A stretch of DNA of 64,000 nucleotides from Armatimonadota bacterium (lineage in GTDB: Bacteria; Armatimonadota; UBA5829; DTJY01), in contig JAGONM010000009.1 in assembly GCA_017993055.1 (NCBI GenBank), positions 1 to 64,000 of the forward strand, read 5' to 3'. The translations under genes were made by a program, and so were the position numbers. Under the pieces are notes generated by a model that saw only the letters and a program-made list of their open reading frames with translations, had not been told where the DNA came from and ran no database searches. This document shows positions 1,969 to 52,107 of the stretch, piece after piece. Within the stretch, counting starts at the first letter, position 1. Each line of letters starts with the position of its first letter.

Positions 1969-2979
1969 TTACAGCGCCGTGATATCGTGCCGTTCGATCA
2001 GGTACTCCTTCGCGGCCTCCATCTGCTCGGAGGTCGGCTCGCGGAACGGGTTTGGGGCACGTTCAATTCCCAGGCGGAGGTACTTGGAGTCACCGAGAGG
2101 ATGGTACGAAAGCAGTTCGATCCACCGGCAGTTGCGTAGTGACCGGTAGATATCGGCCAGCCGGTCGAGGTGCCGCTCATCCAGGTTGACGCCGGCGATC
2201 AGGAGGCACCGAAGAATCGTAACGCCGCCCGCTTCATCGACCAGACGCAAATTCTTCAATATCGGTGCGAGCGGCACCCCGGTATTCGCCTGGTGGCGCG
2301 CCTCGTCGGTGTCCTTGACGTCCCATAGAAAGAGGTCCACCAGCGGGACCATCTCCAGGAAGTGCCGGGACGGCCCGAAGCCGCAGGTCTCGACGCAGGT
2401 GTGCAGCGCAGGCCGCCCTTCGATACACTCGCTATGCGAGCACTCAGGGCTGTCGGTGCTGTTCCCGGGGTCTGCACCGCCCAGTCTCGAGTAGCGAAGC
2501 ATATCGAGAGACGGTGGCACACCATACCTAGCTCCCTCAAGTATCGCACGAGTGAACTCAAACTGGCACAGCGGCTCTCCGCCGGACAGGGTCAGTCCGC
2601 CGCCGGACTCCTCGTAGAAGACGCGATCCTTCTCGACCTCGGCTATCACGTCGTCGGCGGTCATCTCCCGGCCCGCGACCTCGAGGGCCCTGGCGTAGCA
2701 TACCTCGGCACAGATCATGCAGGCCCGGCAGAGGGAACGATCGAAGGCGTGACCCTCCTCAGTCATCAAGTGCGCGCCCTCGGGACAGGCAGAGACGCAC
2801 TTCGCGCATCCGATGCAGAGCTGCGGCGTGTAGAACAGCTCACGGCGGCTGCTTTTCGATTCAGGGTTGTGACACCAGGCACAGTCGAGCCAGCAGCCCT
2901 TGAGGAAGACGACGGTCCGGATGCCCGGACCGTCGTGCGTGCAGAATCGCTGGATGTCGAAGATAGTTCCGGTAGTCAA
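1969..2979 (-). CDS. glycyl-radical enzyme activating protein (radical SAM)
   Basis: This 336-residue protein should install the glycyl radical on the enzyme encoded just upstream, using S-adenosylmethionine and a 4Fe-4S cluster. The radical-SAM motif is CWLDCAWC (Cys29, Cys33, Cys36). Two ferredoxin-type clusters follow (Cys55/58/61/65 and Cys84/87/90/94), as in PFL-activase relatives. GGEP at 133-136 is the SAM-binding motif. Residues of about 151-191 are an insertion with no counterpart in the family, between ILEGA and LHTCVETCG. It coincides with a palindromic DNA element that keeps the frame open. The first codon is TTG (2979-2977), with an AGG about 6 bases ahead, and there is no ATG in the N-terminal region. 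The gene lies 70 bases downstream of its substrate gene and has no export signal. Confidence 0.9.
   Translation of the reverse strand: MTTGTIFDIQRFCTHDGPGIRTVVFLKGCWLDCAWCHNPESKSSRRELFYTPQLCIGCAKCVSACPEGAHLMTEEGHAFDRSLCRACMICAEVCYARALEVAGREMTADDVIAEVEKDRVFYEESGGGLTLSGGEPLCQFEFTRAILEGARYGVPPSLDMLRYSRLGGADPGNSTDSPECSHSECIEGRPALHTCVETCGFGPSRHFLEMVPLVDLFLWDVKDTDEARHQANTGVPLAPILKNLRLVDEAGGVTILRCLLIAGVNLDERHLDRLADIYRSLRNCRWIELLSYHPLGDSKYLRLGIERAPNPFREPTSEQMEAAKEYLIERHDITAL
2411..2516. repeat. dispersed palindromic element (family R1) inside a CDS
   Basis: The element is about 105 bases with imperfect inverted arms, about 2413-2450 and 2477-2514. The left arm contains CCCTTCGATAC followed by CACTCAGGGC, the same core pair seen at 62273-62382. 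It lies inside the activase gene, is open in the coding frame and accounts for most of the extra residues there. No transposase is linked to it. Confidence 0.75.
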
Positions 2980-3049: not shown

Positions 3050-5281
3050 CTACACCACCTGCTGCGTGCGACCGATCACCATGTCCTGCCAGTTCTTGTC
3101 CAGGGTAGCGAATCGCGCCGACCATCCAGCGATGCGGACCGACAGGTTAGGGTACTTCTCGGGGTGCCGCTGGGCATCCAGCAGGAGTGCCGTATCCACG
3201 ATATCCACGTGCATGAAGCACCCGCCGAGTTTCACGAAGCTCTTCATCAGCCCCACGAGCGCCTTGACGCCCTGCTCGCCCTTGACCGATGCCGGCAGGA
3301 TCTTCAGCTCGAGAGTGCCGACGTTGGGCAGGTTGGTGTAGTCCATCTTGCAGTAAGACTTGAGCATCGCCGTCGGGCCTTTGCGATCAGTCCCGGGCGA
3401 CGGGGAGAAGTTCGTGGCGAGTATCTCGCCGAGGTGGTGGCCGTCGGCGGTCGCCTTGCGATACGCCCGCCACTCGATCTCGCGGCCGAAGGTGCTGATC
3501 CCCGCCGGGCGGAGGACGCCGTTGCGATCTTTGACCTCTGAGGCCATCCGGGTGTAGTCGTCGAAGACGCGCTTGACCATCGCATCGGCCTCGTCGTTGT
3601 CGTTTCCGTAGGTCTCGACGCGGTTGAGCACCAACTGCCGGAGGTTCTCCTGCCCCTGCCAATCGGAGCGCAGGATGTCGATCAACTCGTTCAAGGTGAG
3701 CCGCTTCTCCTCGTAGACGAGCTTCTTGATCGCGAGCAGGCTGTTCGCCGTGTTGGCGATCCCTCCGATGTGCGGCGCGAGGGCAGTGTAGACCGGCCCG
3801 CGGTCCCAGTAGCCGCGCCCCTTCTCGATGCAGCCCTCGACGAGCATCGACACGACCGGCGGTGCGGCCCCTCCGAGGCAGTATCCGTCCGCGCCAGCAT
3901 TGTGAGCGTCAACCGCCGCCCGGAGTTCCCTGCAGAACCCGGCGTATAGGCTCTCGAAATCGGTGTACTCGGGATGCTTGTCGCCATCGAGCATCAGCGC
4001 CTGCTGGAGCATCTTGAGCGAGTCCTGCGGCGAGTAGATGAAGTTCGACTTCCCGGGGATGATGGCCTCCCAGCAGCCGTCGTTGGCGAACCGTCGGGCC
4101 TCGTCGAGCGGGTAGCCGAACTTGACGAGCGCGGCGATGACTACCTCCTCGTTGTAGACGGCCACGATACCGCCGCCGTGGCGCTGAACCTCCGCGATGC
4201 GCTTGAGCAGCTTCTCCGGCGTGTGCTTGTTGAGCCGGACCGCGATCGGGTAGTCGCTGATATGAAGCTCCTCGACGACGTCGAGCACGAGGTAGGTCAC
4301 CTCGTTGGTGACCTCCTTCCCGTCAGCATCGATACCCGCCAGGATGATGTTCTGGTAGTGCTGAGCGTCGCCGCCCCAGTAGCCGCCCGCGCCGCCGATC
4401 CACTCCGTGCCCTTGATCCAGAAATGGGCGAGGTCTTCGCGCGCCTCGTCGAGCGTCGTCGTCCCCTGCTCCAGGTCGCGCTTCAGGCAGGGCCAGAGCA
4501 TCTCGTCGATGCGGCCGATTCCCGACCAGTTGCCGCAGAGACGCTGGAACGCATACGCGAACCAGAGCGACTGGACGGCCTCCGCGAACGTGGTCGGCGG
4601 GTTCTCGGGGACGTTCGCCAGATTGCGGAGAACGCGCTCGTAGCCGGACCTCTCAGCGCCGGTGGACTCGGCGATCAACTCGCGGAGGTGGCTGATGTTG
4701 CGCGCGTGCCATCGGTCAGCGGCGTCGAGGCAAGTCTTCATGGCGTTCAGCAGATCGACACCCTTGGCATCGAGGCCACCCCGTGCCAGTCGGACAGCGA
4801 TCTCCTTGCGGATGCCCTTGTATCCGACGCGAAGCACCTTGTCGAAGCCGAGGGTGGTGTGGCTGACGCTGCCTTTGTTGTAGATCGGGACCGCATGCCC
4901 GACCGCCTCGGAGAATGTCGCCGATCCGACGATCCGCTCGCCTGGGAGGATGCGCAGAGGCGCGCGCTCGGCGATGAACATGATCGCGTGGGCGCACTTC
5001 ATCTCCTCCGACGTGCCAGTGACGTCTATCAGGTCCTCGATCTTGACGCCTGAGGGGACCATCGAGCGCCCGAACTCACCGCTCAGCCCGCGCTCGGCGA
5101 GGGAGCGGGTGACGTCCGACAGCCGCTTCGGAGTCGGGAAAGGCGCCTCGATGCTCAGAGTCTTTGCTGTGCTCTCCGCCTCCGCCGACTCGCCCGTGCT
5201 CAGGTAGAACAGTCCGCCGCCAAGCGCGACCATCCCGGTCTTGATGAAGTCCCGCCGGTCGATGCCATTGTCCTTCGCCAT
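3050..5281 (-). CDS. glycyl radical enzyme with Tat leader
   Basis: This 743-residue protein belongs to the pyruvate formate-lyase/dehydratase superfamily. The active-site loop is NDGCWE with Cys403 and Glu405. A GCxE loop fits the dehydratase/lyase branch rather than true PFL, which has adjacent cysteines. The glycyl-radical motif is RIAGWSARF with Gly719 near the C terminus, as expected. The N terminus has a textbook twin-arginine signal: DRRDFIK at residues 8-14, a hydrophobic stretch of about 15-29, then AEA as a possible cleavage site. That is unexpected for an oxygen-sensitive enzyme that must be activated by a cytosolic partner. ATG 5281 has GGGAGG 7 bases upstream; upstream in-frame codons show no family similarity. 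A TATAAT lies at 5320-5315 without a good -35. The substrate cannot be named, and the W in GCWE differs from the usual V or I. Confidence 0.9.
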   Translation of the reverse strand: MAKDNGIDRRDFIKTGMVALGGGLFYLSTGESAEAESTAKTLSIEAPFPTPKRLSDVTRSLAERGLSGEFGRSMVPSGVKIEDLIDVTGTSEEMKCAHAIMFIAERAPLRILPGERIVGSATFSEAVGHAVPIYNKGSVSHTTLGFDKVLRVGYKGIRKEIAVRLARGGLDAKGVDLLNAMKTCLDAADRWHARNISHLRELIAESTGAERSGYERVLRNLANVPENPPTTFAEAVQSLWFAYAFQRLCGNWSGIGRIDEMLWPCLKRDLEQGTTTLDEAREDLAHFWIKGTEWIGGAGGYWGGDAQHYQNIILAGIDADGKEVTNEVTYLVLDVVEELHISDYPIAVRLNKHTPEKLLKRIAEVQRHGGGIVAVYNEEVVIAALVKFGYPLDEARRFANDGCWEAIIPGKSNFIYSPQDSLKMLQQALMLDGDKHPEYTDFESLYAGFCRELRAAVDAHNAGADGYCLGGAAPPVVSMLVEGCIEKGRGYWDRGPVYTALAPHIGGIANTANSLLAIKKLVYEEKRLTLNELIDILRSDWQGQENLRQLVLNRVETYGNDNDEADAMVKRVFDDYTRMASEVKDRNGVLRPAGISTFGREIEWRAYRKATADGHHLGEILATNFSPSPGTDRKGPTAMLKSYCKMDYTNLPNVGTLELKILPASVKGEQGVKALVGLMKSFVKLGGCFMHVDIVDTALLLDAQRHPEKYPNLSVRIAGWSARFATLDKNWQDMVIGRTQQVV

Positions 5282-5357
5282 GTCAGCCTCCCAAACGCAG
5301 ATCCCACTTACCCTATTATACACGAAGACGCGGCATCCCTTACCGGTTATTCGTGGA

Positions 5358-5604: not shown

Positions 5605-8493
5605 CTACTCCGCAAAGAACGACTTCAGGAACTCGGACTCCGGGCCGGGGTAGACCGCCTCGGCGAGGTGCTCTACGCCCTGCTGGTTGCCCCATGAGTA
5701 GACGATGTGCGTCTTGCCCTCGAACTCGCAGAAGTCTACGTCCGAGTTGTTGCTGTCCACCGCGCCGGCGATCCGCTCGCGCTCCTCCTGCGTAAGCTTG
5801 GGGTTGGCGATCAGCTTGTCCTCGATCGAGTAGTGCATGATCGGGTTGAGCGCACTACTCTCCCACTTGACGAGGTCCTTCGAGCGCACGATGCAGGGGT
5901 TGTACGCCGGTCCGGGGTACGCCTCGAGATAGATCATGTAGTACCGGCCCTGAACGTATCGGATCGCGGGGCAAGCGGTATAGCGCTCCTTCGAGTAGAC
6001 GCACTCCGAGGGGGCAAGCTTCCATTCGCGGCAGTCCTTCGACTCGGCGAACCGGATGGTGAACGGCACGCCGGTCTCCTCCGCGGGGCGGCCGATCTCG
6101 AACGCCATGATGTAGCCGTCCCGACCCTTGCAGACCGAGGTGTTGAAGATCCCCCACCCCGGCAGGTTCAGCGCGGTCTTGCTCTCCCACTGCTTGAGGT
6201 CCTTCGACCAGAAGACTTCGACTTTCTCACCGTCCCACTTGTTCACGCCGAACGCATAGGCCGTGTCGCCGTCCACGAACGCGCTCCCGAGGTGGTAGCC
6301 CTGCGCGAAGCCGGGGGTTTCTTCGCCGGTCTTCATGTCAACGAACCGGAAGTACGACGGCTTGCCCTCATTCGGCTTGTAGTACTGATCGCGCACGTAC
6401 TCGAAGCGGTAGAGCTTCCCCTTGAAGACGACCGGTGTCGCCTCGACCAGGTCGCACACGGTGATGCCCAGCTTCTTGATCTTCGGCGGCTGGGGAGGGA
6501 GTGCAACTCCATCCCCAACGTCTGTGGTGGCGCGGTACTCATCTTTCTGCAAACCGATCTCCTCCATTGGAATGCGCTTGAAGCCGAGCTTGAAGGCGGG
6601 TGAGTCGTCCCTCAGCCGGAAGTCCTCACCAGCGAAGTCGACAAACCCAGGATCGGCGTCCACCATGTTGTCCTTGAAGGTGAAAAGCTCGTTGCAGATC
6701 GGGTCGATCACCGGCAGCCACCGCCCGCCGAAGGACACGTTCTGCTGAACCCTGTTGTACTTCGGAGCGCCGGGCTCGTCGTCGTAGAGAGTGAGCAGTT
6801 CGGGGTAGCGGTCCTTCCAGGGCGACGTGCGGTAGGGCATCGCCTCGAGCTGCTGCTTCATGTAGCCATCCACCGTAGGCTTGGCCCAGTTCATGCCGCG
6901 CGCATCCACAAAGACCGAGGGATGGCAGTCGACGAACAGGTTGTTCTCCACGATGCAGTCCCGGCCGCCGCCGATGCAGACGCCCATCTTGGCCTTGTGG
7001 AAGACATTGCCGTAGATGCGCATTCCGCTCGCGCAGTCGTCGATGTAGACCGAGCGGACGTCGCCCGTGCCCATGTGATGGAAGTAGTTGTAGCGGATGA
7101 CGTTCCCCCGCCAGGAGAAGTCGCGCCCGGTGTAGAACCCGCCCGCGTCGCTGGTCTCCATGCAGACGTGGTGCGTCTCGTTGAACTCCATGACGTGGTC
7201 GTTGCCGTGGAAGAGGATGGCGCTGTGCGGCGCATCGTGCATCAGGTTGTGCGCCGCCCGGTTGCCGACGCCGTAAATCAGGATCGCGGGTCTATAGGTG
7301 CGGCTGAACCGGCTGAAATGGTGAATGTGGTTGTTTACGGCGAAGCACCGGCCCGGAGTGAGCGTGGTCCGGTCGCCCGCGTTGATGGCGATGCCGGTCT
7401 CGCCGATGTTGTAGAGATCGGAGGACTGCACACCTGATACCGTGCTCCCCTGGATGCTTATGCCCGTGCAGCCGATGTTCCGGACCGTGCACCCGGCGAT
7501 AACATTTTGCGAACCGCCGTGGATCAGGAAACCGTCGCCGCGCACGTGCTCGAACGTGATTCCCTGGAAGATGATCTGGGAGGCGCCTTCGATGCTGACG
7601 AGCGGAGTCTCCATGATAGAGACGAACACCTCGGCGTTTTTGATGGGCGCGGGCGGCCAGAAGTAGAGTATGCCGGCCTTCCGGTCTACATAGAACTCGC
7701 CGGGCTGATCCAGTTCCTCCAGGATGTTCTCCCAGTAGAAGCGCTTGCCCTGAGTGTAACCGTAGACCCCGTGAGGCGGCTCGGTGGCGACGACCCGGTT
7801 CGCCGAGTCGATGCTCTTGACCTTCTCGTGCGTCTCGGCCCAGTCCCAGGTCCAGTAGCCGTGGACCCAGATGTCGTCGGCCGACTTCCAGCGGGACGGA
7901 CGGTCTCCCTCGTAAGAGAACTTGCCGCCCTGGGGTCCGTCGGGGACGCCCGCGATCTTCGCCCACTCGCCGTTCGGGTACCGAGCGATCTGCATCGGCT
8001 GGTCGTTGAAGAACAGCTCGAGCGCGGCGGTGCCGCCTCCGCTGAAGCCTCGCCGCTTGAGGGAGCCGAAGTCGGTGATGCCCTGAGCCTTCAGGTCGGC
8101 CATGAGGACCGACTTGCGGGCAGCTTCGTCGAGACGAGCCAGGGTGTCGGGACCGGTGACGGGCCGGAAGCCCTTGACCTGCCGACCCCCGGTGATGCGT
8201 ACGGTCTCGCCCTCGCGGGCACGGTAGACGATCTCCGCACCCTCTGTACCGCCGTCTCCCGCGGTCAGCGTGAACGTCTCGGTGCGGTTGTAGACTCCGC
8301 CGCGAATCCAGACGGTCGTGGCGCCGGGGCCTCTCTTCGTGAGGCGTAGGACGTCGCGGGCGCGCTCAAGGGTGGCGAAGGGCTTCGCTTTGGTGCCGGG
8401 ATTCCTGTCGTTCCCATTGGGAGCAACATAGAACTCCGTCGCCTGAGCGGCCGCGGCAAGGAGAAGCAGTAGCAGAATAGCGAATGGTCTCAT
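5605..8493 (-). CDS. secreted right-handed beta-helix protein with C-terminal propeller
   Basis: The protein has 962 residues and a signal peptide (MRPFAILLLLLLAAAAQA). The mature N terminus (EFYVAPNGNDRNPGTKAKPFATLERA) is the typical opening of DUF1565/pectate-lyase-like beta-helix proteins. Residues of about 300-620 contain helix-coil repeats rich in N, G and V/I (for example NVIAGCTVRNIGCTGISIQGS). From about residue 690 the sequence changes to a five-bladed-propeller-like region with FWSKDLKQWES and FAESKDCREWKL, resembling GH43/GH32-type modules. It probably acts on polysaccharide outside the cytoplasm; the specificity is unknown. A good ribosome site (GGGGGTGA) lies about 7 bases before ATG 8493. 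The next gene downstream ends at 8561. Confidence 0.8.
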   Translation of the reverse strand: MRPFAILLLLLLAAAAQATEFYVAPNGNDRNPGTKAKPFATLERARDVLRLTKRGPGATTVWIRGGVYNRTETFTLTAGDGGTEGAEIVYRAREGETVRITGGRQVKGFRPVTGPDTLARLDEAARKSVLMADLKAQGITDFGSLKRRGFSGGGTAALELFFNDQPMQIARYPNGEWAKIAGVPDGPQGGKFSYEGDRPSRWKSADDIWVHGYWTWDWAETHEKVKSIDSANRVVATEPPHGVYGYTQGKRFYWENILEELDQPGEFYVDRKAGILYFWPPAPIKNAEVFVSIMETPLVSIEGASQIIFQGITFEHVRGDGFLIHGGSQNVIAGCTVRNIGCTGISIQGSTVSGVQSSDLYNIGETGIAINAGDRTTLTPGRCFAVNNHIHHFSRFSRTYRPAILIYGVGNRAAHNLMHDAPHSAILFHGNDHVMEFNETHHVCMETSDAGGFYTGRDFSWRGNVIRYNYFHHMGTGDVRSVYIDDCASGMRIYGNVFHKAKMGVCIGGGRDCIVENNLFVDCHPSVFVDARGMNWAKPTVDGYMKQQLEAMPYRTSPWKDRYPELLTLYDDEPGAPKYNRVQQNVSFGGRWLPVIDPICNELFTFKDNMVDADPGFVDFAGEDFRLRDDSPAFKLGFKRIPMEEIGLQKDEYRATTDVGDGVALPPQPPKIKKLGITVCDLVEATPVVFKGKLYRFEYVRDQYYKPNEGKPSYFRFVDMKTGEETPGFAQGYHLGSAFVDGDTAYAFGVNKWDGEKVEVFWSKDLKQWESKTALNLPGWGIFNTSVCKGRDGYIMAFEIGRPAEETGVPFTIRFAESKDCREWKLAPSECVYSKERYTACPAIRYVQGRYYMIYLEAYPGPAYNPCIVRSKDLVKWESSALNPIMHYSIEDKLIANPKLTQEERERIAGAVDSNNSDVDFCEFEGKTHIVYSWGNQQGVEHLAEAVYPGPESEFLKSFFAE

Positions 8494-9258: not shown

Positions 9259-11892
9259 CTAGTTCAGCACCCGAATCAGGTCGGACGAGGCAATGAGCGA
9301 CGCATCCGTCGAGGACGGCCGCTGGAGGATACCCCGGACGATCACATATCGGCCGCTCGTCAGGCCATGGGACGGGCAATATACCGTAACAGGCTTGCCG
9401 GAACCGTCGTCCACCGTGAACGAGTTGCTATCGAGCACGGCCGCTTTACCCCAGACCATGAACAGGAACTCCCACTGCCTCTCAACCGTGAGTTCGTCGA
9501 AGATCGCCCGGTTGGCCGTTGAGTACACGGGAGCGGTGGTGTACGCGCCGTTCGAATCGCTCGCGACGTTGCCCGCCGCGTCTTGGACTTCAACCAGAAC
9601 GGAATGCGAGCCGAGAACCGCATCCGCCGGTACAGAGCCGGACCAGATTCCGCCGTCTGCAGCAAGGGGAATGCCGTTTGCCGTCACCGTCTGGACCCAC
9701 AGATTGTCGGATGCACTCACCTGCACCAGGACCGGATCTCCGGCCGCGGCCAGCGACGGAGACACCGCAACCGAGGTCACGACGGGCGGAGTCACATCGG
9801 CGAAGAACACCGGGCTCAACGAGGTCCACTCGCCCCACGCGCCGCCGACGGCCTGCGACCTGCCCCACACCCTTCCGTCGGCCCGGAAGACAAAGACCTG
9901 GAGTCGGCCATCGTCATGGTGACCCACGATGGGCGCGCCGACGGCCGATCCGCCGAGCGACGTCCAAGCGCCCCATGCACCATCCGCGACCGCCTGGAAG
10001 CTTCGCATGACCTGTCCCGAGTCGTCCGTAAAGAACATCTCCTGAAGGCCAGACGGCGTGCGGGCAAGCACGGGATCGGACCCGGAAGATGCGCTGATCG
10101 CGGTCCATCCTAACCAGGATGTACCCACGTCGAGGCTCGCCTGACGATTGTACCGCAGAGTGCCGTCGGCGAATCGGCAGAAAACCTCGGTTCGGCCGTC
10201 GGAGGCTCTTCCCATCGCAGGCTGCCCGACGATTGGTCCACCCAGGGAAGCCCAGACAGGCCAAGACCCGTTGTTGGCCTGGTACTTCCAGTAGAGCGCG
10301 CCGTCCACACCGCGCACGTAAAGCTCCTGCCTGCCCTCCCACGTAAGCGCGACGACGGGATCTCCGGCTGCGATGCCACCGAGCGATTCCCACGCCTGCC
10401 AGCCGCCTCCCGAGGCCTCCCACTTGTGGTGGATGCTTCCATCGGACATCCTGCAGAAGATGTCCAGGCGCCCGTCGGGGCTCTTGCCGACCGCAGGTTC
10501 GCCTTGTATCGGCCCGCCGAGGCTCGCCCAGTCGGACCAACTCCCGCCCGCAACCACCTGCGCGCGGTAGTAGAGGTTGCCGTCAGTGAATCTGGCGAAG
10601 ACCGTGTTGCCCTTGAGGCGGTTGGTGGCGGCAACCGGGTCGGAGGCAACCGTGCCGCCCAGGTTCGTCCATCCGCTCCATCCGCCGTTCGGAGCCGTCT
10701 GCCGCATGAAACAGGTTTCGCCTGCGATGCTGCGGGCGAAGAGACCAATCCTGCCTCTGGTATCGGTGACGATCGGTGCGGCGGCCTGATAGGTGTAATA
10801 GGGATACCGGCCGTACACCAGATTCGGCATCACGGCGATCAACACTCCGCCCGCGTGATAGAGCCACACATGCGCGATCTGGTTCGCATTGTAGACGACA
10901 TGATCCCACCGCGAGTCCGCGCCGGCGGGGTCGTTGCAGATATAGTCACCCGAAGACGTCACTCCGACCATCAGCACCAGGTGCCCGTTGGTGGAAGGAA
11001 TCGGCGAGTTCGTGAGTTCGCCCGCGCTATATGCCATGCTCATGATCACGGCGTTGCCGGCGGCAAACTGATCCCTCAACGGCTGCTGCCCGTTGGCGCG
11101 GAAGGTGTATGCCTTGAACCCGTGCCTGGCCGCGCCCTGCGCGATCATCGGCCAGTTGCCGTAAAGATCATTGTAGTCGTCATAGCAGTCCGCCGCGACG
11201 GTCGCGGTGGGCAGGTTGCAGCCGTAATAATCCTCGGCCATGGTAAGAGAAGTGGGGCCGCAGATGACATCGCCGATGTCCGGTACCCAGTACTGCGAAC
11301 GCCAAGGGACGGGCAGAGAGGTGGTGGCTCCCGGGCCGGGCAACGGAGAGTATGATATCAGCGTGCCGGTGTCGGCGTAACAGAGAGACATCAGGCGTAG
11401 CGTCGGCGTCGCACCGAGCCTGTTCGTGTACAAGGTGACCCGGTATTCGATCCGAGGCCAGGCAGTGTAGAGCATGAGGGTATCTATGTCAATGTACCCG
11501 TACGAATCGCTCTTGTTGCGCTTGATGCCACCCGGGATGTAGCCCATACGGGCGACCTCGTACCAGATCGTCGAGGTACCGCCGTTCACCGCTCGGACCT
11601 CCGTCCTGGCCCCTGTGCCTTCGGGGAAATCCAGATTCCAGGAGGGCACGACGTTGTTCACCAGGAAAGGAGCGTTCGTTCCGGTGAAGCTCGCAATACC
11701 GCTGGTCGCGGTGGAAGTCAGACGTATGCCCGTGCCTGAGACGTACTGGGTATTCGCATCCAGGGCAACCGGCGCAAGGGCCGTCTGAAGGTCAAAGACG
11801 CTTGTCGAACTACGAGGCGAAGTCGTTTGTGCAAAGGCGGCGGAAGCGAGAGCCAACACGGCCACGAGAACTGCATGTGGCGCAAGACGCAT
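9259..11892 (-). CDS. secreted C39-like peptidase with tectonin-type repeats
   Basis: This is an 877-residue exported protein with signal peptide MRLAPHAVLVAVLALASAAFA. Residues of about 195-350 form a papain-like C39_2 fold. Cys211 is in CGPTSLTMA, His304 in NGHLVLMVG and Asp321 in NDPAG, giving a complete catalytic set. Residues of about 370-700 are repeated blades with the pattern W..W.SLGG...DPV...DGR.E.F.R, typical of PLL/tectonin-like propellers that bind glycans or surfaces. An Ig-like domain (about 705-790) follows. The last 90 residues form an OB-like module beginning FMVWGKAAVLDSNSFTVDDG, resembling the N-terminal region of the GH3 protein at 53405. A cell-wall or surface peptidase role is inferred. 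It has its own promoter. Confidence 0.75.
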   Translation of the reverse strand: MRLAPHAVLVAVLALASAAFAQTTSPRSSTSVFDLQTALAPVALDANTQYVSGTGIRLTSTATSGIASFTGTNAPFLVNNVVPSWNLDFPEGTGARTEVRAVNGGTSTIWYEVARMGYIPGGIKRNKSDSYGYIDIDTLMLYTAWPRIEYRVTLYTNRLGATPTLRLMSLCYADTGTLISYSPLPGPGATTSLPVPWRSQYWVPDIGDVICGPTSLTMAEDYYGCNLPTATVAADCYDDYNDLYGNWPMIAQGAARHGFKAYTFRANGQQPLRDQFAAGNAVIMSMAYSAGELTNSPIPSTNGHLVLMVGVTSSGDYICNDPAGADSRWDHVVYNANQIAHVWLYHAGGVLIAVMPNLVYGRYPYYTYQAAAPIVTDTRGRIGLFARSIAGETCFMRQTAPNGGWSGWTNLGGTVASDPVAATNRLKGNTVFARFTDGNLYYRAQVVAGGSWSDWASLGGPIQGEPAVGKSPDGRLDIFCRMSDGSIHHKWEASGGGWQAWESLGGIAAGDPVVALTWEGRQELYVRGVDGALYWKYQANNGSWPVWASLGGPIVGQPAMGRASDGRTEVFCRFADGTLRYNRQASLDVGTSWLGWTAISASSGSDPVLARTPSGLQEMFFTDDSGQVMRSFQAVADGAWGAWTSLGGSAVGAPIVGHHDDGRLQVFVFRADGRVWGRSQAVGGAWGEWTSLSPVFFADVTPPVVTSVAVSPSLAAAGDPVLVQVSASDNLWVQTVTANGIPLAADGGIWSGSVPADAVLGSHSVLVEVQDAAGNVASDSNGAYTTAPVYSTANRAIFDELTVERQWEFLFMVWGKAAVLDSNSFTVDDGSGKPVTVYCPSHGLTSGRYVIVRGILQRPSSTDASLIASSDLIRVLN

Positions 11893-11928
11893 GGTATAAC
11901 CTCTTACGGACGGTCCGCACTACATGCC

Positions 11929-11956
11929 ATTATACGCGATGCCGCCGAAATGTCAA
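11929..11956 (-). promoter_or_regulatory. sigma70-type promoter of the C39-like gene
   Basis: On the minus strand TTGACA (11956-11951) and TATAAT (11934-11929) are separated by 16 bases. The odd palindrome CGGACGGTCCG at 11907-11917 lies at the expected transcription start region and could be an operator. Confidence 0.75.
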
Positions 11957-11993
11957 TCCGTATGCCGTTTCGTGAGGCGCAGGAGCGGCGTCC

Positions 11994-13313
11994 TCAGCCT
12001 TTTATGCCTGTAAGAGTTATGCCTTGAATGAAATACCGCTGGGTGAAGAAGAAAACCAACAGGACAGGGAGCATCACGAGCGTCGAGGCGGCCATGAGCA
12101 GGCCGTACTCAGCGCCGTGCGCGCCCTGGAAGAGCTGAAGCGCGTACGCGAGCGGCATCTTCTCGGGCGAGTTGACGTAGATGAGCGGACCCATGAAGTT
12201 GTTCCACGAACCCATGAAGGTCATGATAGTGAGCGCCGCCAGTGCGGGCTTGATGAGCGGAAGCATGATCCGCCAGTAGATGCCGAAGTAGCTGCATCCG
12301 TCTATCTTCGCCGCATCCTCCAGATCGTTCGGGATGGTCATGAAGAACTGGCGCAGCAAAAAGACACTGAACGCTCCGCCGAAGAACGACGGCAGCCAGA
12401 GCGGTCTGAGCGTGTCAATCCATCCGAGCGCGCGGAAGATCAGGAATACCGGGATCATTGTTACCGCGCCGGGGAGCATCATCGTCGCCAGCAAGACCAC
12501 GAAGAGCTGGTCGCGCCCGGGCCATTTGAGGCGTGCGAACGAGTAGGCCACTAGCGAACTCGACATTATCGTGCCGAGGATGCTCAGAATCGTGATGTAG
12601 ATGGTGTTCCAGACGTAGATGAGGCCCTTGCGAGTCTCGACAGGCAGGTATTCCAGCGCATCAGAATAGTTGTCCCACTTGAGCGCAAATCGCCGGACCC
12701 TGGTCAGTTCCGACCTGGCGACGACGGCGGTCTCGCCGGCTCGCGGCTGAGGGGGCAGCACCTTGATTCGCTTGCCGCCGTCCTCGAGTTCGGCGATCTC
12801 GGCTACCGTCACGTTCCCCGACTCGGTCTTCCAGGTCGAGACACCACGAGGTTCACCGTCCACCATCACCTCCACCTGTCGAGTCGGCAGCCAGACCGGC
12901 GGGTACTTAAAGATCTCGTCCTCCTCCTTGAGCGACGTCGTCAGCAGCCACGCGAACGGTACCGTGAAGATGACGGATCCGGTGAGCAGTACGAGGTGCA
13001 GGGAGACCTTGCGTCCGTACTCCTTGCGTTGCTTGATCCGCCGCCAGTCCATCACGGTCCTCTCGATCACGATCTGCGCCAGAGCGAGTCCGATGACGGC
13101 CGCCGCGACTACGGCGAAGTATCTGACCGGGCGAGCCGACTGCACCTGCGCAGCGACTAAGGCAGCGGGCGCCAGCGAGACGATCGTGCCAAGGAGCATC
13201 GCGGGCGCGCGGCATCTGGCGGCTTCGATTACCTGCACGAGCAGGAGCCTCAGCACCGCGTAGAGCAGAACCGTGCCGAGCATCCAGAGCAACGGGTAGA
13301 GCGTCTGGTTCAT
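11994..13313 (-). CDS. sugar ABC permease, MalG type, with extra N-terminal helices
   Basis: This 439-residue inner-membrane permease belongs to the CUT1 carbohydrate ABC family. The EAA loop that docks the ATPase reads EDAAKIDGCSYFGIYWRIMLP. The protein is about 150 residues longer than a usual MalG. About 100 residues at the N terminus add three to four membrane helices. About 80 residues are inserted after LKEEDEIFKYPPVWLP in the first outer loop and are rich in beta-type sequence. The start ATG overlaps the stop of the upstream permease gene (ATGA, 13313-13310). No ATPase gene is present, so a shared MsmX/MalK-type ATPase elsewhere is expected. Confidence 0.88.
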   Translation of the reverse strand: MNQTLYPLLWMLGTVLLYAVLRLLLVQVIEAARCRAPAMLLGTIVSLAPAALVAAQVQSARPVRYFAVVAAAVIGLALAQIVIERTVMDWRRIKQRKEYGRKVSLHLVLLTGSVIFTVPFAWLLTTSLKEEDEIFKYPPVWLPTRQVEVMVDGEPRGVSTWKTESGNVTVAEIAELEDGGKRIKVLPPQPRAGETAVVARSELTRVRRFALKWDNYSDALEYLPVETRKGLIYVWNTIYITILSILGTIMSSSLVAYSFARLKWPGRDQLFVVLLATMMLPGAVTMIPVFLIFRALGWIDTLRPLWLPSFFGGAFSVFLLRQFFMTIPNDLEDAAKIDGCSYFGIYWRIMLPLIKPALAALTIMTFMGSWNNFMGPLIYVNSPEKMPLAYALQLFQGAHGAEYGLLMAASTLVMLPVLLVFFFTQRYFIQGITLTGIKG

Positions 13314-38208: not shown

Positions 38209-38400
38209 TCAGGCGTCGGACGATTCGTTCTCTTCTTTCTTCTCCGGCTCGTCCGCATCGTCTGCGACGATCTCCTTGGTAGATTTCTTGAACTCCTTGA
38301 TCCCCTGTCCGAGCGACTTGCCGAGTTCAGGGAGCTTCTTGGCCCCAAAGAGAACCACTACTATCAACACGATGGGCAACGCTTCCTGCCAGCCAATCAT
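38209..38400 (-). CDS. tatA: TatA-type twin-arginine translocase subunit
   Basis: This 63-residue protein has one N-terminal helix ([23 protein letters not shown]), the FGxKKLPE hinge and an amphipathic helix ([15 protein letters not shown]) before an acidic tail. It should form the Tat pore for folded proteins. TatC is not in the window. It is 33 bases after the next Tat gene. Confidence 0.9.
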
Positions 38401-38433: not shown

Positions 38434-38658
38434 CTAGTCCCTGTCAACCGATGACACATCGTCCGAGACCGAGGCGACTTCATCTTTGATATCGGACTCC
38501 ATCTGCTCGATGGATGACGTGAACTCCCGCGCGGCCTTTTTCAGTTCCCTGACGGTACTCCCGATGGTCCGCCCGATTTCGGGAAGCCTCCTTGGGCCGA
38601 ACACCAGAAGGGCGAGCAGCATTATGACGATTATCTCCTGGGTCCCGATCGGTCCCAT
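38434..38658 (-). CDS. TatA/TatB-type translocase subunit
   Basis: This 74-residue protein has the same plan as TatA, but the hinge is FGPRRLPEIGR; proline after glycine is more usual in TatB. The tail is longer and acidic (SSIEQMESDIKDEVASVSDDVSS). With its neighbour it suggests a Tat system with two different small subunits. At least one candidate Tat substrate, the glycyl radical enzyme, is in the window. Confidence 0.85.
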   Translation of the reverse strand: MGPIGTQEIIVIMLLALLVFGPRRLPEIGRTIGSTVRELKKAAREFTSSIEQMESDIKDEVASVSDDVSSVDRD

Positions 38659-39770: not shown

Positions 39771-39862
39771 CGCGCCGAAGTGGCGGAATGGCAGACGCGC
39801 ATGGTTCAGGACCATGTACCCGCAAGGGTGTAGGGGTTCAACTCCCCTCTTCGGCACCAACC
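39771..39862 (+). repeat. attL: 92-bp direct repeat containing tRNA-Leu
   Basis: It is identical over 92 bases to 52016-52107. Identity starts 3 bases before the tRNA and ends 3 bases after its CCA. Flanking bases differ on both sides. Confidence 0.9.
39774..39859 (+). tRNA. tRNA-Leu (CAG), left copy
   Basis: This 86-base tRNA has acceptor stem GCCGAAG/CTTCGGC, discriminator A and encoded CCA. The anticodon loop TTCAGGA sits between CATGG and CCATG, giving CAG, which reads CUG. The long variable arm (around GTACCCGCAAGGGTGT) marks a class II leucine tRNA. The T-loop region is GGGGTTCAACTCCCC. Confidence 0.95.
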
Positions 39863-52015: not shown

Positions 52016-52107
52016 CGCGCCGAAGTGGCGGAATGGCAGACGCGCATGGTTCAGGACCATGTACCCGCAAGGGTGTAGGGGTTCAACTCCCCTCTTCGGC
52101 ACCAACC
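52016..52107 (+). repeat. attR: 92-bp direct repeat containing tRNA-Leu
   Basis: It is identical to 39771-39862. The right flank contains the terminator that presumably belonged to the original tRNA locus. Confidence 0.9.
52019..52104 (+). tRNA. tRNA-Leu (CAG), right copy
   Basis: It is identical in all 86 bases to the left copy, with the same anticodon CAG and encoded CCA. It is served by a promoter inside the element and a chromosomal terminator 14 bases downstream, so it is probably expressed. Confidence 0.95.

Follow-up and report, generated by a model that had tools for sequence, protein, structure and literature searches.

The question raised by the locus

Characterised glycyl radical enzymes (GREs) are, to our knowledge, regarded as enzymes of the cytosol, since they depend on an activase and on SAM and since oxygen destroys them. 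In a contig of an Armatimonadota bacterium (JAGONM010000009.1, positions 1 to 64,000, referred to as the window), one gene, P0001, encodes a GRE that begins with an apparent twin-arginine (Tat) export signal, and the question is whether such an enzyme could be armed inside the cell and then work outside it.

Results

The locus encodes a complete GRE of dehydratase type

P0001 is read from the minus strand, from an ATG at position 5281 to a stop codon ending at 3050 (cf. Table 1). Its product scored 327.2 bits with the PFL-like profile and 81.8 bits with Gly_radical, both far above the cut-offs, and the intact GCWE loop and glycyl motif named in the initial annotation proved exact, as did the open reading frame and its coordinates. 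The invariant positions in an alignment of 41 GRE sequences include H141, W252, C403, W404, E405, and G719. Both domains of the superfamily, the active-site cysteine loop, the radical glycine, and a cognate radical-SAM activase were thus found. The catalytic motifs are likewise retained in the other leader-bearing GREs, which rules out a degenerate enzyme. None of the curated NCBIfam equivalog cut-offs for GREs (PFL, HypD, CutC, HpsG, arylacetate decarboxylases) was exceeded, the nearest scores being 338 for TIGR01774 (cut-off 678) and 313 for HypD (cut-off 1100).

The AlphaFold2 model of P0001 (mean pLDDT 88.8) matched best with PDB entry 1r8w (TM 0.82), while sequence comparison pointed to 5i2a and 1r8w; B12-independent glycerol and propanediol dehydratases led the list of structures, followed by CutC, HypD, and anhydrohexitol-phosphate enzymes. 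With the B12-independent glycerol/1,2-propanediol dehydratases (1r8w, 5i2g), P0001 shares the fold and the motifs, H141 being aligned with a catalytic-type histidine and E405 with the glutamate of GCxE. It differs from them in its overall sequence (about 26% identity), in having GCWE instead of GCVE, in its leader, and in the replacement of their His-Ser pair by N251-W252. The same fold (TM about 0.8, 23-24% identity) is found in the sugar-type GREs of the YbiW/PflD group (8id7 and 8id0, structures with 1,5-anhydrohexitol 6-phosphates), which act on cyclic polyols. The enzymes of that group are cytosolic, use phosphorylated substrates, and are not known to have a leader.

Table 1 Features of the GRE locus and of the Tat genes in the window
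Feature	Position	Strand	Evidence or remark
GRE-activating radical SAM enzyme P0002, 336 aa, no leader	1969..2979	minus	TIGR02494 301 bits, cut-off 174
In-frame insertion of about 37 aa in the activase, copy of a genome-wide palindromic repeat	2410..2520	minus	81 genome matches
GRE coding sequence P0001, 743 aa, PFL-like + Gly_radical	3050..5281	minus	ORF, profile search, structure model
Glycyl radical motif VRIAGWSARF, G719	3110..3139	minus	profile + alignment
Active-site loop GCWE, residues 402-405	4067..4078	minus	motif + alignment
Predicted Tat signal peptide MAKDNGIDRRDFIKTGMVALGGGLFYLSTGESAEA, residues 1-35	5177..5281	minus	homologue leaders, codon constraint, leader rule, pLDDT
AEA cleavage-type motif, residues 33-35	5177..5185	minus	sequence
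Uncharged hydrophobic region, residues 15-30	5192..5239	minus	16 uncharged residues, hydropathy 1.42
Twin-arginine motif DRRDFIK, residues 8-14	5240..5260	minus	sequence
Shine-Dalgarno-like GGGAGG, spacer 5 nt to ATG	5287..5292	minus	sequence
Right-handed beta-helix protein with Sec-type signal, GRE neighbour	5605..8493	minus	cluster-mate in L004 weakly matches GH141-insertion-domain
TatA/B-type gene, unlinked to GRE	38209..38400	minus	
TatA/B-type gene, unlinked to GRE	38434..38622	minus	

The N terminus reads as a Tat signal peptide

The twin-arginine motif, the hydrophobic stretch, and the AEA that had been noticed at the N terminus are all present within residues 1-35, so that P0001 has the motif, the uncharged h-region, and the cleavage-type site of a Tat substrate. 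The Pfam TAT_signal model scored the leader below its threshold (12.3 bits, E 0.18, cut-off 22.7; 17.1 bits in a whole-genome search). The hydrophobic region resembles that of other leaders encoded in the same genome, and in the AlphaFold2 model residues 1-44 have pLDDT values below 50 and lie outside the folded core. The two other GREs of this genome have no leader at their N-termini.

Leaders were also scored with a custom-written, TATFIND-like rule. P0001 passed. When its own leader residues were shuffled, the rule was satisfied 36 times in 100,000; 5 genes among 578 neighbours passed, and none of the 50 homologues lacking a leader did. Among the 30 leader-bearing members described below, 17 passed when both arginines were required and all 30 when a single arginine was permitted.

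The leader is a conserved addition to the GRE domain

A contig scan yielded 80 loci with GRE relatives, and after removal of L014, which has in-frame stops, and addition of the window, 80 loci were examined. The removed gene (L014/L088, genome G073) contains one in-frame TGA and one TAG and is either broken or the product of an assembly error. The leader was present in 30 of the 80 loci, whereas the other 50 start directly before a conserved RLSxxTR segment. Since the same domain also occurs without a leader, and many of the leaderless genes have ribosome-binding sites of their own, the leader amounts to an added segment some 40-60 residues long. Its bearers come from Armatimonadota, Planctomycetota, Hydrogenedentota, and Bacteroidota, and a peculiarity of one strain is ruled out by these homologue loci. 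When 59 mature domains were placed on a tree (quick LG+G4, several forks open), two changes sufficed for the leader label, compared with 19.5 for shuffled labels; we interpret the two as a single gain and a single loss. The putative loss is L095 (Armatimonadota), in which the linker WSGVWRPEVPRRL is kept and the leader is gone. The concern that orthologues might lack the leader was thus not borne out, given its occurrence in many loci and its single origin. The GRE gene itself is patchily distributed, being present in 19 of 291 Armatimonadota genomes and in 5 of 200 genomes of the Alistipes family.

In pairs of close relatives, dS/dN of the leader was 0.70/0.20 (window/L004), 1.20/0.19 (L013/L019), 1.09/0.18 (L015/L016), and 0.48/0.06 (L025/L026), values indicating that the leader codons are under purifying selection. 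The leader evolves faster than the mature GRE part, yet it is constrained; signal peptides evolve faster than the mature part of a protein. Because the same active site is found in about 50 homologues that lack a leader, the chemistry does not require export. A lower cysteine content of the leader-bearing ("exported") members (10.5 versus 12.6 per 700 aa) is a weak trend confounded by phylogeny.

The second arginine is lost in most Bacteroidota members

Conservation of the RR motif among orthologues held for one part of the clade and failed for another: outside Bacteroidota, all 16 GREs with a leader retain both arginines, whereas within that phylum only 1 of 14 does (L031, TRRDFFK). The other 13 have a single arginine, in forms such as SRADFLK, SRKEFLK, and SRSEFLK, where RR has become R[AKSEG] and SRx[DE]FLK is kept. 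Relatives from Rikenellaceae follow the same pattern (ISR[SAG]EFLK), and the leader of L158 is seemingly out of frame. In four Bacteroidota genomes, the further Tat-type leaders that could be read carry RR, although the Pfam model by which they were found favours RR. With the second arginine gone, the Tat reading is weakened for this branch; the leader is still constrained there and therefore has some role, perhaps as a Tat signal of low strength, as an anchor, or as a signal for Sec. Outside Bacteroidota, a leader of the P0001 type is very probably a genuine Tat-type leader.

Adjacent activases have no leader

The cytosolic-type activase P0002 lies adjacent to the GRE gene, just downstream of it, and an activase is adjacent in 16 of the 30 leader-bearing loci. 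None of the activases read next to GRE relatives has a leader: they start at or near the motif ...DIQ[RH]FC..DGPGIRT, and although several of the reading frames have in-frame upstream extensions, none of these reads as a leader, which rules out that the activase is exported too. Where no activase is adjacent to a leader-bearing gene, a TIGR02494 match above the cut-off was found in 14 of 14 genomes checked, so a missing activase is also ruled out. Activation of the GRE must therefore precede export.

The insertion in the window's activase (cf. Table 1) is absent from the activases of L004, L005, and L008 and might impair the enzyme; some matches of its palindromic repeat across the genome stand in arrays (contigs C15 and C70). 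In L042 (positions 10152-13025), a GRE activase is fused in one reading frame of 958 aa to a C-terminal DUF2961.

The genome contains Tat components and other Tat substrates

TatA/B-type genes are present in the window, as the initial annotation had stated, but they are 33 kb away from the GRE gene. TatC is encoded on another contig (C21:64937-65569). It was found in 23 of 27 leader-bearing genomes, four leader-bearing MAGs being without it, and in 7 of 9 other genomes, so that a tight association between TatC and the leader is unsupported.

About 43 Tat-leader matches were obtained in the genome, and the ten Tat-leader proteins that were scanned comprise five sulfatases, two Gfo/Idh/MocA proteins, one GH123 protein, one aldo/keto reductase, and one unassigned protein. 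One of the sulfatases starts with MAKDSGITRRDFMK, an n-region almost that of the GRE. The genome also encodes a radical-SAM sulfatase-maturing enzyme (TIGR03942, 403 bits, cut-off 349). As genes for Tat-leader sulfatases and for this maturase co-occur, maturation inside the cell by a radical-SAM enzyme, followed by export of the folded product, is probably already practised here for sulfatases. COX1, the one oxidase component searched for, was not found in the genome, which is consistent with anaerobic life.

Gene neighbours and inserted domains

The neighbours of the GRE relatives are scattered (GH106, beta-helix, nucleoside hydrolase, enolase family, aminotransferase) and allowed no assignment of a substrate, while the glycan-active ones among them, such as GH106 near the GRE gene in L028, give a hint of a sugar substrate. 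From the two tryptophans and the glycan-related neighbours (the beta-helix protein, GH106, and the DUF2961 fusion), our guess is that P0001 may carry out an elimination of the dehydratase type, with a cyclic polyol or sugar as its substrate. The GRE region of the window is adjoined by a gene for a large protein with Peptidase_C39_2 and DUF346 repeats (9259-11892), and two tRNA-Leu genes with the same CAG anticodon lie at 39774-39859 and 52019-52104.

A Laminin_G_3 domain is inserted in the GREs of four Hydrogenedentota members (L037, L038, L045, and L053) and, by similarity, also in L035 and L039, at a loop corresponding to the region near residue 168 of P0001. Domains of this type are typical of extracytoplasmic proteins, and we know of no description of one inside the catalytic chain of a GRE. 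Since the leaderless L044, L047, and L050 (Lentisphaerota/Firestonebacteria) carry another, beta-sandwich-like insert of about 170 aa near the N-terminus (no Pfam match), the inserts are only supportive of export and not decisive.

Discussion

We consider it reasonably probable that P0001 is a dehydratase-type GRE that acquired its Tat signal peptide in a single ancestral event, and that it is folded and radical-activated inside the cell and then exported by Tat. The protein would fold as a cytosolic dimer, the activase would use SAM to install the radical on G719 in the cytoplasm, and TatABC would carry the enzyme, already folded, through the inner membrane, the leader being cut after AEA. 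In the anoxic periplasm, the enzyme would act on a small, probably sugar-like substrate, and it would be used until the radical is lost, because the periplasm has no activase or SAM for re-arming. Activation inside followed by export fits both the leaderless adjacent activase and the Tat-leader sulfatases with their radical-SAM maturase. Counting against this reading are the sub-threshold TAT_signal score, the missing second arginine in most Bacteroidota members, the many leaderless homologues, the loose relation between TatC and the leader, the insert found in leaderless GREs, and the repeat copy within the window's activase. Judged from the sequence, export of the protein is likely, whereas its export in the radical form is a nearly balanced matter in which doubt weighs slightly more.

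The other readings differ in where they place the enzyme and its radical. That the leader is an artefact, the true protein being cytosolic and starting downstream, is hardly credible. It would agree with the cytosolic location of other GREs; nevertheless, a misannotated start is ruled out by the GGGAGG site before the ATG, by the leaders in 30 loci, and by the codon constraint, and a downstream start would remove part of the conserved RLSDVTR region. The ribosome-binding site and a leader dN well below dS also answer the concern that the segment is not translated, and a chance RR is ruled out by the rarity of passing shuffles. An uncleaved membrane anchor, holding the enzyme at the inner side of the membrane, close to its activase, would explain why the activase partnership is retained and could describe the SRx[DE]FLK and hydrophobic stretch of Bacteroidota; against it stand the consistent RR outside that phylum, the cleavage-type motifs of small residues that follow the hydrophobic region, and the position of the leader outside the folded core, and we regard it as quite improbable.

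It is also improbable, to our mind, that the enzyme is exported by Tat and its radical quenched on the way, with activity confined to the cytosol before export or absent outside. Glycyl radicals are labile to O2 and are not re-armed outside the cell, and homologues without a leader work in the cytosol; selection that maintains the leader as well as the catalytic motifs would, however, be wasteful, and the genome without COX1 fits anoxic life. A split between lineages concerns the rest of the clade and is compatible with our preferred explanation for the window: the leader would serve Tat export in Armatimonadota, Planctomycetota, and Hydrogenedentota and be degenerate or Sec-routed in Bacteroidota. 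In favour of such a split, RR is changed in 13 of the 14 Bacteroidota GREs and again in those read from Rikenellaceae, whereas both arginines persist in other leaders there; the constraint persisting in this branch (cf. L025/L026) and the fact that Sec export would unfold a pre-activated GRE speak against it, and on balance we find it possible but unlikely.

The route proposed for P0001, cytosolic activation followed by Tat export, has relatives. The Tat-leader sulfatases and the radical-SAM maturase of the same genome resemble it in their logic, down to a near-identical n-region (L143), but their formylglycine is a stable, O2-tolerant product, which the glycyl radical is not. Periplasmic [FeFe]-hydrogenases are O2-sensitive, assembled inside with the help of radical-SAM enzymes, and exported by Tat, with a metal cofactor and not a protein radical. 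No description of a Tat-dependent or exported GRE was found in the open papers searched, a set that stops short of the main GRE reviews.

The leader offers a practical marker of this clade among unannotated "pyruvate formate-lyase-like" genes, and the clade is directly testable, given a compact set of leader, activase, and enzyme and a complete Alistipes genome among its members (L012). Tentatively, and with somewhat more reserve than conviction, we propose that in anaerobes of several phyla a GRE armed by a cytosolic activase may be exported by Tat in its radical form and perform unrepaired chemistry of limited lifetime on glycan-derived substrates in the periplasm. If this is true, a radical placed on a protein inside the cell would pass with it through a membrane translocase and be put to use on the far side, and radical chemistry would join the extracytoplasmic processing of substrates by anaerobes.
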